From NCBI GenBank assembly GCA_029776205.1, contig JAKOTQ010000111.1:1-47562 (forward strand): DNA of 47,562 bases, in the 5' to 3' direction. Below the pieces are notes generated by a model that did no database searches, was not told the origin of the DNA, and saw only the letters and a list, made by a program, of their open reading frames with translations. Within the stretch, counting starts at the first letter, position 1; the number at the start of each line of letters is the position of its first letter. Shown piece after piece: positions 4,187 to 40,708 of this stretch. A program made the translations under genes and the position numbers. This stretch comes from Bacillota bacterium. Its GTDB lineage: Bacteria > Bacillota > UBA4882 > UBA8346.

Positions 4187-4261
4187 CTTAAAATAAAAGA
4201 CTTTCGCTCTATTTTATTCGCAACACAGGAAAAAGGGACGAAAGGACAGGACGTTGGATAG

Positions 4262-4436
4262 TTGACAGTTGACAGTTGGGACAGTGGACAGTTGTCTAAG
4301 AGTTACACAGTTGACAGTGGACAACTGACAGTTATGTGTAAAGACACATGGTTAAAGCTCCAACATTATATGAATTGGAACCAAAGCCAAACACCTAATC
4401 ATTTAACTGTCAACTGTAAACTGTAGACTGTCAACT
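4262..4436. repeat. Heptamer-phased repeat island A, inverted arrangement
   Basis: From 4264 the unit GACAGTT recurs in 7-base phase with small variations and one 2-base insertion. It resumes at about 4312-4332 as GACAGTG, GACAACT, GACAGTT. From 4405 the reverse complement runs as AACTGTC, AACTGTA, AACTGTA, GACTGTC. Between the two arrays a perfect small hairpin (ATGTGT AAAG ACACAT, 4334-4349) lies in unique sequence. The opposing arrays could pair into one long imperfect stem. It fills the gap between the SPOCS gene terminator and the CgeB-like gene. Confidence 0.85.
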
Positions 4437-4456: not shown

Positions 4457-4490
4457 AAAAAAGAAAGAGGCCGATCTGGCGATCAGCCCC
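4457..4490 (-). terminator. Rho-independent terminator of the SPOCS gene
   Basis: Read on the minus strand, an imperfect 10-bp stem (GGGGCTGATC / GATCGGCCTC) with a short loop is followed by TTTCTTTTTT. It starts about 10 bases after the stop codon at 4501. Confidence 0.75.
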
Positions 4491-4500
4491 TTTTTCAAGT

Positions 4501-19155: not shown

Positions 19156-20046
19156 TTACAGAGCCCGAGGATGGGCCTTTTCATAGACTTCCTTAATTTT
19201 GCTCTTGGTTAAATGAGTATAAATCTGCGTGGTAGAAATATCCGCATGGCCGAGCATTTCCTGAACCGATCGTAAATCCGCCCCATTTTCCAACAGATGG
19301 GTTGCAAAAGAATGGCGCAAGGTATGCGGCGTAATATCATTTTCAAGATTGATACTTTCCGCATATTTTTTGATAATCTTCCAAAAACCTTGCCGGGTCA
19401 AACGATGCCCATGATGATTTAAGAAAAGCGTCTCTTCATTCAAACTGGAAGCAAGAAACTTTCGGGCATGTTCCAAATAATGTTTAACATACTTGGAAGC
19501 CACCGAACCTAAAGGAACAATTCTTTCTTTAGAACCTTTTCCAAAGCATTTAATATATCCCATTTCCAGATTGAGATCGCTAATCTTTAACGAAACCAAT
19601 TCCGACACCCGCAAACCGGTTGCATATAGCACCTCGAGCATCGCCCGGTCCCGAATCCCGGCAGGTGTTTTTAGATCAGGTTGTTCCAAAAGATTACTGA
19701 CATCTTCAACCGAAAGAACCCTTGGTAACCGTTTTTCCTGTTTTGGCGCATCCAGATTGATGGTTGGGTCCCGTTCAATTTTCGCTTCCCGAAACAGAAA
19801 ATGATAATACGACTTAATCGCCGCCAAACTCCGGGATAAAGTAGCTGTAGCTTTTCCTTTAGCTTGGAGTTGCAACAAATACCCGATCACCGTCGCCTGG
19901 GTAGTTTCTTTTATTTCAATATTTTTCTTCTCTTTCAAGTATTGCAAATATTGACGTAAATCCCGTGCATAGGATTCCAGGGTATTTTGGGATAATCCGC
20001 GTTCGACAGAAAGATAATTGAGATAATCCTGAAGCATTTCCTGCAC
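19156..20046 (-). CDS. xerD: Tyrosine recombinase XerD/XerC
   Basis: The 296-residue enzyme has an N-terminal SAM-like core-binding domain (about 1-90) and a catalytic domain. The full active-site set is R146 (TGLRVSEL), K170 or K172, H241-x-x-R244 (HTLRHSFATH), H267 (LGHADI) and Y276. Xer recombinases resolve chromosome dimers at dif near FtsK. Length and the LGHADISTTQIYTH motif fit XerD best, but XerC cannot be excluded without the partner. Start is GTG with AAAGGAG nine bases upstream. It is monocistronic, with a strong terminator. Confidence 0.92.
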   Translation of the reverse strand: MQEMLQDYLNYLSVERGLSQNTLESYARDLRQYLQYLKEKKNIEIKETTQATVIGYLLQLQAKGKATATLSRSLAAIKSYYHFLFREAKIERDPTINLDAPKQEKRLPRVLSVEDVSNLLEQPDLKTPAGIRDRAMLEVLYATGLRVSELVSLKISDLNLEMGYIKCFGKGSKERIVPLGSVASKYVKHYLEHARKFLASSLNEETLFLNHHGHRLTRQGFWKIIKKYAESINLENDITPHTLRHSFATHLLENGADLRSVQEMLGHADISTTQIYTHLTKSKIKEVYEKAHPRAL

Positions 20047-20171
20047 TTAAGTCAACTCCTTTTGTTAACTTCGGAACGCTACATCATTTCGACAATATAC
20101 AGGTTAACTCCTTTTTTCAAGCTACAGGAAAGATTTCCAAGCAAATTATCAACCAGGAGAAAACTATAGTG

Positions 20172-20269
20172 GCGCACAGCACAAAGTTCACAGTACACGC
20201 TTTAATACCCTAGTAATAATGCCTAGCATTCAGCGCCCATTTCCTAGAGCTCAGCACCTAATACCTTGA
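20172..20269. repeat. Heptamer-phased repeat island B
   Basis: Fourteen consecutive 7-base blocks can be read from 20172. The first (GCGCACA, GCACAAA, GTTCACA, GTACACG) resemble the CACAG-type units of islands C and D. The later ones (GCCTAGC, ATTCAGC, TCCTAGA, GCTCAGC, ACCTAAT, ACCTTGA) form a second flavour in the same phase. It is more degenerate than the other islands. It occupies the spacer between spoIIM and xerD; no gene is visible here. Confidence 0.6.
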
Positions 20270-20338
20270 AAAAGCCTAAAACACATGTCTTCAATAATCT
20301 GTATTCTGATTGCAATGACTGACTACTACTATCTCCTG

Positions 20339-20965
20339 TCATAGCAACCTCGCCACCCATGCGGTAAATATCGGAGTGACATATCCTTGAACGAACCCTG
20401 CGATCACAACCACGACTAATACAACCAGAGTCAGAACAGCACATCTTATTAACTCTTCACCGAGTAAAACCGGTTTTCTTGTAAAACGGATTTTCGTTAA
20501 AGCAGCCGCACAATCGATAATAACCATCACCATAAACAACAGTCCAGGAATTAATAGTATATTGTGGGGAAAAATACCGGCCATCGCAAGAATGACGCCT
20601 TTCAATCCCATGGTTTGCAAAAGAAAAGCGACGCTGAAACCCAAGATAAATCCGCGGGTAAAGATTAAAAGAAGAGCCAGAGGCACTCCGATGACACTTA
20701 TCCCCATAAAAAACAGGAAAAATACTGTTTGAACATTGGAAATAATCGTCTGGCGGGTATAATTCGCATTCTCCAAATACGAACTCCCTTGAAGCCCATG
20801 GTTGACATACCGCAGCAAATCTTCCTTTTGCGAACCTTCAAGAATATTGGCTGCAAGTACACCGAAGATAACACCCATGATAAAGAGGATTAAAACAAGC
20901 GCGGCTAAAAAAATACGGTGTTGAAAGTAATCTCTGATCAGGCTGCGGATCGGTAATCCGGCCAT
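20339..20965 (-). CDS. spoIIM: Stage II sporulation protein M
   Basis: I start at the ATG at 20965 (208 residues), preceded by AAGGGGGG. The frame is open upstream to 21115, but that part runs into repeat island C and has no ribosome site. The protein is polytopic, with helices near residues 20-40, 75-100, 105-130, 135-165 and 180-205. It has the SpoIIM-family segments MGVIFGVLAAN, GFSVAFLLQTMGLKG and GIFPHNILLIPGLL. SpoIIM works with SpoIIP and SpoIID in peptidoglycan remodelling during engulfment, in the mother-cell membrane. It is flanked on both sides by heptamer repeat islands. Confidence 0.92.
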   Translation of the reverse strand: MAGLPIRSLIRDYFQHRIFLAALVLILFIMGVIFGVLAANILEGSQKEDLLRYVNHGLQGSSYLENANYTRQTIISNVQTVFFLFFMGISVIGVPLALLLIFTRGFILGFSVAFLLQTMGLKGVILAMAGIFPHNILLIPGLLFMVMVIIDCAAALTKIRFTRKPVLLGEELIRCAVLTLVVLVVVVIAGFVQGYVTPIFTAWVARLL

Positions 20966-21032
20966 TGACATCCCCCCTTGTCCACTCGTAACAACATATG
21001 GCGGAACCAGGGAAGATATGAATACTTTTTTA

Positions 21033-21342
21033 CAGGACATAGGAGATAGGAGACGGGAGTCAGGAGACAGAAGATAATCTTGACCTTTAGTTTCAGATGC
21101 AGGTTCACAGTACACTGTGCACAGTTCACAGTGAATACTTTAGGCTTGAAGAATGAGTGGAGTCAGGATTTAGGAGTTAGGAATCAGAAGTTAGAAGACA
21201 GGAGGTAGTTTACAGTTAATAGTTAAACAGTTTAAAGTTCCAAACTCTCAATACATTGTATATTAGTACTGTGTACCGTGTACTATGCGCTGCGCACCCT
21301 TGATCCATTAACTGTAAACTGTACACTGTCAACTGTCAACTA
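21033..21342. repeat. Heptamer-phased repeat island C (largest, several flavours)
   Basis: Five arrays keep exact 7-base phase. At 21033-21074: CAGGACA, TAGGAGA, TAGGAGA, CGGGAGT, CAGGAGA, CAGAAGA. At 21104-21131: TTCACAG, TACACTG, TGCACAG, TTCACAG. At 21159-21228: ten units from GGAGTCA to GTTAAAC. At 21267-21294: TACTGTG, TACCGTG, TACTATG, CGCTGCG. At 21308-21342: TTAACTG, TAAACTG, TACACTG, TCAACTG, TCAACTA. The last unit supplies the stop codon of the ComB-like gene. No coding sense is visible elsewhere in the interval. Confidence 0.88.
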
Positions 21343-22019
21343 TTGAGAAACCCTTTTCCTACGATCAGTTGGATCAAATATTGAGCAGCGAGTACGTCTT
21401 CCATCGAATTGGCGCTGGCAGCCACCACAGTGATACCGGTACCGTTTTTGAGAGCCTGTTCGATAGCACGTTCCACTCCGGCCAAGGCGGGATCAATCCC
21501 TTTCTTTTGCGGAGTCCGGGTGACGGTAGCGGTCACTACAGCCGGCGCCCCATTATTATAGGCAGCATCATAAGCCACTCCGCCTGTATCCGAAACAAAG
21601 AGAACGACTTTATTATTGAAATCAGCCAATTTATGAATTTCGGTGCCTATATTCGGAACGATCAGCTCTACTTCGGCTCCGGAACGAGCCACACCAAGCA
21701 TGGCCGTTTCCGCCCGTTTCTTTCGTTCTTCTTCTGTCCCGTAACGAGGTTCAGAAACCACCACCAATTGGGTTTTATATTTTAATGCGGTCTTTCCGGC
21801 TAAATATCCCATCCGGTCGGGATTAAGATTGACAGGCACCTTGCATCCGGAGGGAGCAGCTCCGAATATGGCCACTGCACCGCATTCCAAGACAACTTCA
21901 GCACTGGTGGACATATCGATCACATCAACAATCACTACAACATCGCCCCGCCGAGCAGCTTCAGCAGCTCCCGAAGCATTAAATGTCATATTTACAGTCT
22001 TCACAAAGATGTCACCCAT
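21336..22019 (-). CDS. ComB-like (2-phosphosulfolactate phosphatase-like) protein of unknown role
   Basis: The 227-residue protein begins (DVVVIVDVIDMSTSAEVVLECGA) like the ComB family, whose phosphatase acts on 2-phosphosulfolactate. The later part (VVSEPRYGTEEERKKRAETA, VVLFVSDTGGVAYDAAYNNG, VVAASANSMEDVLAAQYL) is less clear. A GTG at 22004 has GGGTGA upstream and may be the real start. It lies in a set with spoIIM and a DUF3866 gene; coenzyme M or sulfolactate genes are not seen, so a different role is likely. The stop codon lies in repeat island C. Confidence 0.55.
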   Translation of the reverse strand: MGDIFVKTVNMTFNASGAAEAARRGDVVVIVDVIDMSTSAEVVLECGAVAIFGAAPSGCKVPVNLNPDRMGYLAGKTALKYKTQLVVVSEPRYGTEEERKKRAETAMLGVARSGAEVELIVPNIGTEIHKLADFNNKVVLFVSDTGGVAYDAAYNNGAPAVVTATVTRTPQKKGIDPALAGVERAIEQALKNGTGITVVAASANSMEDVLAAQYLIQLIVGKGFLNS

Positions 22020-37293: not shown

Positions 37294-38475
37294 TTAAGCC
37301 TTCAACAATTTGACCTTATCCAATCGTTCCCACGGTAAATCCAGATCATTTCGCCCAAAGTGACCATAGGCGGCAACTTGTTTGTAAATCGGCCGTCTCA
37401 GGTTTAAATCCCGAATGATCGCAGCCGGACGAAAATCGAAATGATGATTGATCAACTCAGCGATCGCCGCATCATCCATGATGCCGGTTCCAAAGGTATC
37501 CACCATCACCGATACAGGTCTCGCCACTCCAATCGCATAAGCAATCTGGATCTCACACCGTTTAGCCAGACCAGCAGCCACCACATTTTTAGCGGCATAC
37601 CGGGCAGCATAAGCAGCTGAACGGTCAACTTTTGTCGGATCTTTGCCCGAAAAAGCTCCGCCCCCGTGCCGGGCCATTCCACCGTAGGTATCTACAATGA
37701 TCTTTCGACCGGTCAATCCTGAATCCCCCTGAGGACCGCCAATCACAAAACGGCCCGTCGGATTGATCAAAAAGCGGGTTCGCTCATCCAGTAAGTTGGC
37801 TGGTATAACAGGCCGAATCACTTTTTCAATAATATCCCGTTCAATTTGATCGTGCTCTACTGCTGGATCATGTTGAGCCGAAATAACAATGGTGTCTACC
37901 CGAACCGGAACATTGTCCTGATATTCCACAGTCACCTGACTTTTCCCATCCGGGCGCAAGTACGGCAGTTCTTCCTTTTTCCGAACTTCCGATAAACGCC
38001 GGGTCAACCGGTGAGCCAAAGCAATTGGCATCGGCATATATTCCGGAGTTTCATCACAGGCAAAACCAAACACCAAACCCTGATCGCCAGCACCAATCGC
38101 TTCGATGGCTTCATCATCCATTTCACCGATTCTGGCCTCCAATGCTTTATCGACTCCCTGGGCAATATCAGGAGATTGTTCATCGATGGAAGTGATGACA
38201 GCGCAGGTATCGCAGTCAAATCCATATTTGGCCCGAGTATAACCGATCTCCCGGATGGTTTCCCGGACTATTTTGGGAATATCAACATAACAGCTGGTAG
38301 TAATCTCACCCATGACCAACACAAGCCCAGTAGTTACTGCGGTTTCACAAGCAACTCTAGCTTGAGGATCACAGCTAAAGATAGCATCCAAAATCGCATC
38401 AGATACCTGATCGCAAATCTTATCCGGATGTCCTTCAGTTACCGACTCTGAGGTAAACAAATGTTTTTGACTCAA
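37294..38475 (-). CDS. metK: S-adenosylmethionine synthase
   Basis: The 393-residue enzyme makes SAM from methionine and ATP. Visible signatures are [20 protein letters not shown] (residues about 8-27, methionine/ATP site), [12 protein letters not shown], and [19 protein letters not shown] (P-loop-like ATP site). Length is normal. Translation starts at a TTG with GGAGTG upstream. It is controlled by the SAM-I riboswitch in its leader. Confidence 0.97.
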
Positions 38476-38530: not shown

Positions 38531-38641
38531 GCACTCATCTTCCAGATTGCTCTGGGGGAATTAGCACCGTAAAACAGCTTCAAGCTGTTTTGGGTTGCTG
38601 GGTATCATCAGGCCCTGTCCCTCCACCACTCTTGATGAGAT
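38531..38641 (-). ncRNA. SAM-I (S-box) riboswitch
   Basis: On the minus strand the conserved S-box segments appear in order: CAAGAGTGGTGGAGGGA, GGGCCTGATGATACCC, AGCAACC, a P3 stem (AAACAGCTTGAAGCTGTTT), GGTGCTAATTCC, and a P4 stem (CCAGAGCAATCTGG). The closing helix P1 pairs CTCATC (5' arm) with GATGAG (3' arm). The long P3 hairpin is a perfect inverted repeat. SAM binding should stabilise P1 and let the terminator form, turning metK off. Confidence 0.97.
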
Positions 38642-40553: not shown

Positions 40554-40708
40554 TTCACAGTTCACAGCACACAGAACACAGTGCGCTGCTATATAATCGC
40601 GGCACGGACTCCGAGGTTCTTGAACCTAGATTTGGGTGTCTGTCTTCTATATTCTGTATTCTGTCTTCTTACGTTATTTCTGTGAACTATGCACCGTGTA
40701 CTGTGTAC
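40554..40708. repeat. Heptamer-phased repeat island D
   Basis: At 40554-40588 the units are TTCACAG, TTCACAG, CACACAG, AACACAG, TGCGCTG. At 40639-40708 ten units run in exact phase: TCTGTCT, TCTATAT, TCTGTAT, TCTGTCT, TCTTACG, TTATTTC, TGTGAAC, TATGCAC, CGTGTAC, TGTGTAC. Between them is a small palindrome (AGGTTC TT GAACCT, about 40613-40626). It lies inside the otherwise compact pfkA-pyk operon. No gene is seen in it. Confidence 0.85.

Follow-up and report, generated by a model that had tools for sequence, protein, structure and literature searches.

Bacteria have been known for decades to carry heptamer repeats, which have mostly been put down to slippage. Nostoc reportedly also carries very small dispersed units (SDR), said to be 21–27 nt long and nested within tandem heptamer arrays; they recall the islands described here in their nested structure, the latter being palindromes of ~250 bp. 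Heptamers are the most abundant class of long simple sequence repeats (SSRs) in many bacteria, with slippage proposed as their source (Mrazek, 2007, as related in PMC4679880 and PMC4692102). The nearest described cases are the STRR or TAACTGA arrays of Beggiatoaceae and Cyanobacteria (MacGregor, 2015; PMC4679880) and the GGGAATC / GGGGA(C/T)T repeats of Xanthomonas and Nostoc (Rehm, 2015; PMC4692102). The former, like our islands, are intergenic and built from seven-base units, CAGTTGA among them (CAGTTAT is TAACTGA reversed), and some cyanobacterial arrays likewise mix several “flavours” of heptamer. However, many of them are perfect repeats, and those of BOGUAY sit for the most part immediately upstream of start codons, whereas the islands here consist of degenerate units, are found 3' of genes and make up the arms of palindromes in which several flavours follow a directed order. 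The GGGAATC repeats resemble our islands in having heterogeneous intergenic heptamers and occasional inverted pairs, and two related strains carry most of them between the same genes while length and sequence vary extensively; they differ in having one G-rich flavour with quadruplex potential, and have not been presented as the polarised arms of dispersed palindromes.

Two kinds of mobile element also invite comparison. REPINs (REP doublets) and their RAYTs (Bertels and Rainey, 2011; PMC3116915) are dispersed extragenic inverted repeats of lineage-specific types that insert next to or into existing copies, all of which recalls the islands. REPs are, however, short and tied to a Y1 transposase, whereas the arms here are heptamer arrays, and the dispersed extragenic inverted pair occurs in genomes with no match to Y1_Tnp (PF01797), neither in the window's own genome nor in its sister species. 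The type II MITEs of Cyanobacteria (Anabaena sp. 90; PMC3542288) are similarly mostly intergenic inverted-repeat elements, 77–541 bp long and with no matching IS ends, but some also disrupt ORFs and heptamer arms are not described for them.

The window, that is, the whole stretch of 47,562 nucleotides analysed here, belongs to a genome of 2.73 Mb in 124 contigs (99.4% complete); the sister species (85% complete) is about 82% identical to it in nucleotide alignments. Genes around the window islands include those for SpoIIM, a XerD-like recombinase, SipL, pyruvate kinase and phosphofructokinase, so that a sporulating Bacillota host is plausible. The original prediction described four islands of drifting heptamers in 7-bp phase, and the sequence is as described: all four show lag-7 periodicity, with match fractions of 0.50 (island at 4262), 0.41 (20172), 0.57 (21033) and 0.52 (40554) against about 0.26 in dinucleotide shuffles (z 7.0, 3.1, 12.1 and 7.6, respectively, the island at 20172–20269 being the weakest). 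Lag 14 is raised at the four islands too and the remaining lags are flat. Tandem Repeats Finder called period 7 at three of the four. No lag but 7 is strongly in excess across the window as a whole (387 windows score at least 35/70, against a mean of 0.46 and a maximum of 13 in shuffles), and when another 400 kb of the genome is scanned this lag dominates again, accompanied by its harmonics 14 and 21; the feature is genome-wide. The prediction was also right that the feature is unexpected in this lineage. The heptamer-island pattern is rare in relatives, and other genera of the family give weak signs of the same heptamer units.

We described the arrays with a hidden Markov model (HMM) of seven flavours on either strand, whose starting heptamers were set by hand and then refitted: A, CAGT[TG][GT]A; B, CAGT[TAG]CA; C, YAG[GT]AG[TA]; C2, YAGAA[GT]A; D, CT[AG]GGT[AT]; E, GG[CT]A[TC]GA; and F, AAAGGGA-like. 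Most are of a YAG-NNNN type. Shuffled sequence served as the control, a reversed-sequence control having been dropped because reversed CAGTTGA arrays are CAGTTGA arrays again. The model marks 10,780 of 1,239,172 bases (about 0.87%), against 16 of 420,000 in shuffles, and only 287 of the 10,780 lie inside called genes, in keeping with the intergenic position first reported. The “strict” 7-bp phase, by comparison, survives only in part: it holds within an array of one flavour but is not generally carried across flavour junctions, where certain pairs show a preferred offset (e.g., B to E, 14/19, and A to F, 13/28) and others show none.

We call an arm + when YAG runs left to right and - when it is the reverse complement. 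In the islands a + (YAG-type) arm stands on the left and a - arm on the right, so that the YAG strand points inward from both ends; this strict orientation had been missed by the original prediction. Of the pairs of adjacent arms separated by less than 400 bp in the two genomes, 87 run “+-” and 2 run “-+”, the two exceptions (214 and 396 bp apart) probably being arms of different islands. Between 260 and 3500 bp the order turns over (“-+” 21, “+-” 2), as expected between separate islands if each is + then -. A model-free count that used the patterns only gave 57 “+-” and 0 “-+” over four data sets: 30:0 in the window's genome, 8:0 in the sister species, 14:0 among 117 loci of other genomes (mostly Cyanobacteria, plus Bacteroidales, Natroniella, Clostridia and others) and 5:0 among 120 loci on viral contigs, the last two sets testing order and not abundance since they were picked for A-type arrays. 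The cyanobacterial loci thus follow the same order as the islands here. Loci in other genomes, mostly of Cyanobacteria (L175, L228 and L252, with Microcoleus among them), carry perfect CAGTTGA arrays together with CATTAGT and TTGGTTA heptamers, again mostly as + then - pairs. We found no report of such a fixed polarity in the literature, of which our coverage was partial.

The flavours, too, are ordered from the outside in: A to B 28 times against 4 for the reverse, B to E 24 against 2, D to C 18 against 5 and C to A 15 against 1. The two arms of an island often differ in flavour and some copies are truncated. The inner arms share a flavour in 37 of 84 cases, where 15 are expected.

The arms of the window's islands are those marked by the HMM. 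Island 1 has a left arm at 4225–4333 (+) of F and A heptamers (TAGTTGA CAGTTGA CAGTTGGGA CAGTGGA CAGTT...) and a right arm at 4403–4436 (-) of reversed A heptamers (AACTGTC...), beyond which a terminator scan placed a terminator-like hairpin at 4464–4493. Island 2 pairs B heptamers (CACAGCA, TTCACAG; 20174–20198, +) with degenerate D heptamers (TGCCTAG/CACCTAA; 20209–20266, -); it occupies the gap between spoIIM and the adjoining XerD-like recombinase gene (window 19156–20965). In island 3 the outer left arm (21032–21076, +) consists of C heptamers (TAGGAGA/CAGGAGA; also found by Tandem Repeats Finder), the inner left arm (21103–21260, +) runs serially through B, E, C, A and B, and the right arm (21266–21343, -) has reversed B and then A heptamers. 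Island 4 has B heptamers on the left (TTCACAG/CACACAG; 40554–40584, +) and C2 (TCTGTCT/TCTGTAT) followed by reversed B on the right (40639–40708, -).

One reading of such arrays is that of the STRR type: heptamers expand in place by slippage and mutation then blurs them. The abundance of heptamers among long SSRs, at least as related in PMC4679880, and the perfect arrays in Cyanobacteria speak for it, as does an over-representation of 7-nt gaps between related arms (48 gaps are exactly 7 nt long, 30 are 6 nt and 19 are 8 nt), an excess that is an upper bound because alignment of periodic sequence favours 7; of all such gaps of at least 4 nt, 25% are multiples of 7 and three quarters are not. 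As the main source, however, slippage predicts an excess of identical neighbours, and we found a deficit: adjacent A units were identical in 4 of 156 cases (14.3 expected) and adjacent B units in 8 of 301 (17.6 expected), with no deficit for C and D. The islands therefore have the above-chance seven-base periodicity of STRR without the identical adjacent units that local expansion leaves. Nor do recurrent multi-unit words, directional order, fixed polarity and shared centres follow from slippage. Local slippage as the main source is strongly disfavoured, and we regard the STRR-type account as a whole as very improbable; the arrays are unlikely to have been written in this way, and slippage may still trim or extend them. 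It follows that the process suggested at the outset, an addition of seven bases at a time, is upheld only in so far as some length changes come in sevens, and is not supported as a simple process because adjacent A and B units are identical less often than chance and most gaps do not come in sevens.

The islands are instead well supported as mosaic, dispersed palindromic elements of roughly 150–350 bp with strict polarity. A 201-base piece of island 1 has 44 matches in its own genome, and several besides itself cover part of a common core at 73–81% identity, so that the left arm of island 1 belongs to a dispersed family. Island copies share irregular words (AGTTGGGACAGTGGACAGTT; ...AGAAGCTTTAAAATAGTTGACAG) and centres: the arms repeat AGTTGGGACAGTGGACAGTT, and the junction AGAAGCTTTAAAATAG recurs before A. 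The sister species has a family of its own of ~250 bp, with the centre GGAACGCTAACGCGTTCC between A arms on both sides (e.g., L292:14205-14435) and at least 13 matches, copies being truncated on either side (L289, L301, L372); outside that species the window's genome gave one weak match, and 59 further genomes gave none. A plasmid search with this element and with the main island returned no match. Since the dispersed palindromes that hold the arrays have irregularities in common, and centres that are unique, a large part of the heptamer structure has been copied and not grown locally.

Our main rival explanation for such copying is a MITE family with an undetected transposase: the arrays would be terminal inverted repeats bearing several transposase sites, a transposase acting in trans would move the palindrome, and insertion would prefer palindrome centres and gene 3' ends. 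Terminal inverted repeats have this inward polarity, lineage-specific amplification is seen in families of ~250 bp that have a unique centre, and the matching flavours of the inner arms fit as well. Against this, DDE_Tnp_1 (PF01609), Transposase_mut (PF00872; Mutator) and Transposase_20 (PF02371; IS110) were, like Y1_Tnp, found in neither genome (the sister genome being only 85% complete), the rve domain occurs three times in the window's genome and not in the sister species, and no “+ gene -” composite, which an autonomous transposon between arms would form, was found in 1.68 Mb. Copies are, moreover, truncated at either end, and eight orthologous sites inspected by eye had no obvious target duplication, although their content is replaced and so offers no clean empty site. 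We therefore rate the MITE account unlikely, if still a serious contender. The two genomes are strikingly poor in the tested transposase families though full of islands.

The position of the islands is as distinctive as their structure, since they lie directly 3' of genes. With genes called by our own simple gene caller, the median distance between stop codon and arm is 14 nt where the arm faces a gene 3' end; for arms that face a 5' end the distance to the start is 69 nt. Gaps of at least 80 bp carry islands in 79 of 460 cases in the window's genome. In aligned regions of the two species 27 sites have an island in either and 25 have one in both; because the contigs of the sister species were mostly chosen for carrying islands, this is best stated conditionally, the window's genome also having an island at 25 of the 26 aligned sites where the sister species has one, and the remaining site looking by eye like a decayed island. 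What stands at these conserved sites is another matter. Both flanks of island 1 are conserved in the sister species while the content between them is unrelated, and orthologous sites share the outer flavour in 9 of 29 cases (20% by shuffling) and the inner flavour in 8 of 29 (14% by shuffling). By pattern, flavour C occurs 55 times per Mb in the window's genome and twice per Mb in its sister. Shared k-mers, compared within and between species as a sign of concerted evolution, showed a slight excess only. Families and flavours are lineage-specific, and with other elements standing at the same positions in the sister species, these sites are being continually rewritten by a genome-wide process.

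This turnover bears on whether the arrays are kept by selection, either as protein sites with 7-nt spacing or as 3'-UTR hairpins with a role in transcription termination or mRNA stability. Units of one flavour have some near-fixed positions and others that allow two or three bases, and for A, B, D and E the two species have near-identical unit profiles, a position-specific conservation that selection would produce; the placement directly 3' of genes, the same sites in both species and a median folding z of -2.6 point the same way. But wholesale replacement of content between species, with a whole flavour missing from one, is hard to square with it, and separate terminator-like hairpins adjoin the islands. 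One copy of the GGAACGCTAACGCGTTCC family folded as DNA gave z -3.3, and the consensus of that family forms an interrupted hairpin with six pairs changed on both sides, although the overall covariation term is unfavourable; for many other islands the gain in folding over shuffles is slight, and island 3 shows none (z -0.7). Selection for a hairpin through matched arms was rejected, the arms of an island pairing no better with each other than with arms swapped in from other islands (median rank 0.4), so that the arms are not specifically complementary and hairpin fragility is modest for many islands. Selection is on balance an improbable source of the pattern.

It is also conceivable that an enzyme adds + heptamers to both 3' ends of a double-strand break, guided by a fixed template or by a bias of the enzyme itself, and that end joining seals the gap. 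Such polarised 3'-end extension would account for polarity regardless of flavour match, for one-armed islands and for the same polarity across phyla, and Ku is encoded. However, Ku is present in nearly all relatives and the island pattern is rare there, the multi-flavour words and centres look copied rather than newly synthesised, and neither genome has a match to the reverse transcriptase domain RVT_1 (PF00078), so that the gene that marks reverse-transcription elements (retron, group II, DRT) was found in neither. We consider 3'-end extension improbable, marginally more so than selection. Mechanisms based on a reverse transcriptase or a Y1 enzyme were rejected on the absence of their domains, and the lack of matches to the families searched weakens the transposon and reverse-transcriptase models.

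We give about an even chance to a different account, in which heptamer-built palindromic repeats, often mosaics, are copied between sites by templated break repair. Palindromic islands would be fragile and prone to break; a break inside an island would leave both 3' ends carrying + heptamers, which could anneal to the like-sense arm of another island and be extended inward along it, with an occasional slip of 7 or 14 nt, until the ends are rejoined. Inward copying of this kind would keep polarity and the outer-to-inner order of flavours, spread stereotyped junctions and make mosaics, and the same sites could be rewritten repeatedly without the element having a transposase itself. With one genome available per species, neither an intermediate nor a recent copying event was seen. 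If the centre were rewritten last, outer flavours should be better conserved between species, which they are not clearly (9/29 against 8/29 for inner ones); a gradient with the newest units at the centre was likewise not supported, the outermost units fitting the consensus best, contrary to inner units being fresher. Templated copying, moreover, does not explain the origin of the heptamers or the polarity shared by unrelated phyla. A more speculative extension, which we think distinctly unlikely, is that unrelated phyla share an unrecognised strand-polarised synthesis or copying at breaks, which would write YAG-type heptamers inward from both ends and let islands outpace the surrounding genes in turnover.

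That polarity is fixed at 57 to 0 across unrelated genomes, and that content is replaced at conserved sites, points to a definite, testable process. It would bear on how non-coding DNA near gene ends arises, on genome fragility at palindromes and on the source of some stop codons. Fifteen genes have their stop inside an arm, and the stop is TAG in 10 of the 15, against 154 of 995 genes overall; they include gene 21336–22019 (minus strand), whose stop codon (TGA) lies inside the right arm of island 3. In some genes of a sample from the window's genome the stop is supplied by the first arm heptamers, mostly as TAG (e.g., L346:12110, L344:3315 and L329:10424), and at the L329 site the C-terminus of the gene differs from that in the sister species. 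The islands had no match to any described Rfam family; the sole match in the window lies elsewhere, an ordinary SAM riboswitch (RF00162, 70.2 bits) at 38532–38641 (-), upstream of the S-adenosylmethionine synthetase gene at 37294–38475.
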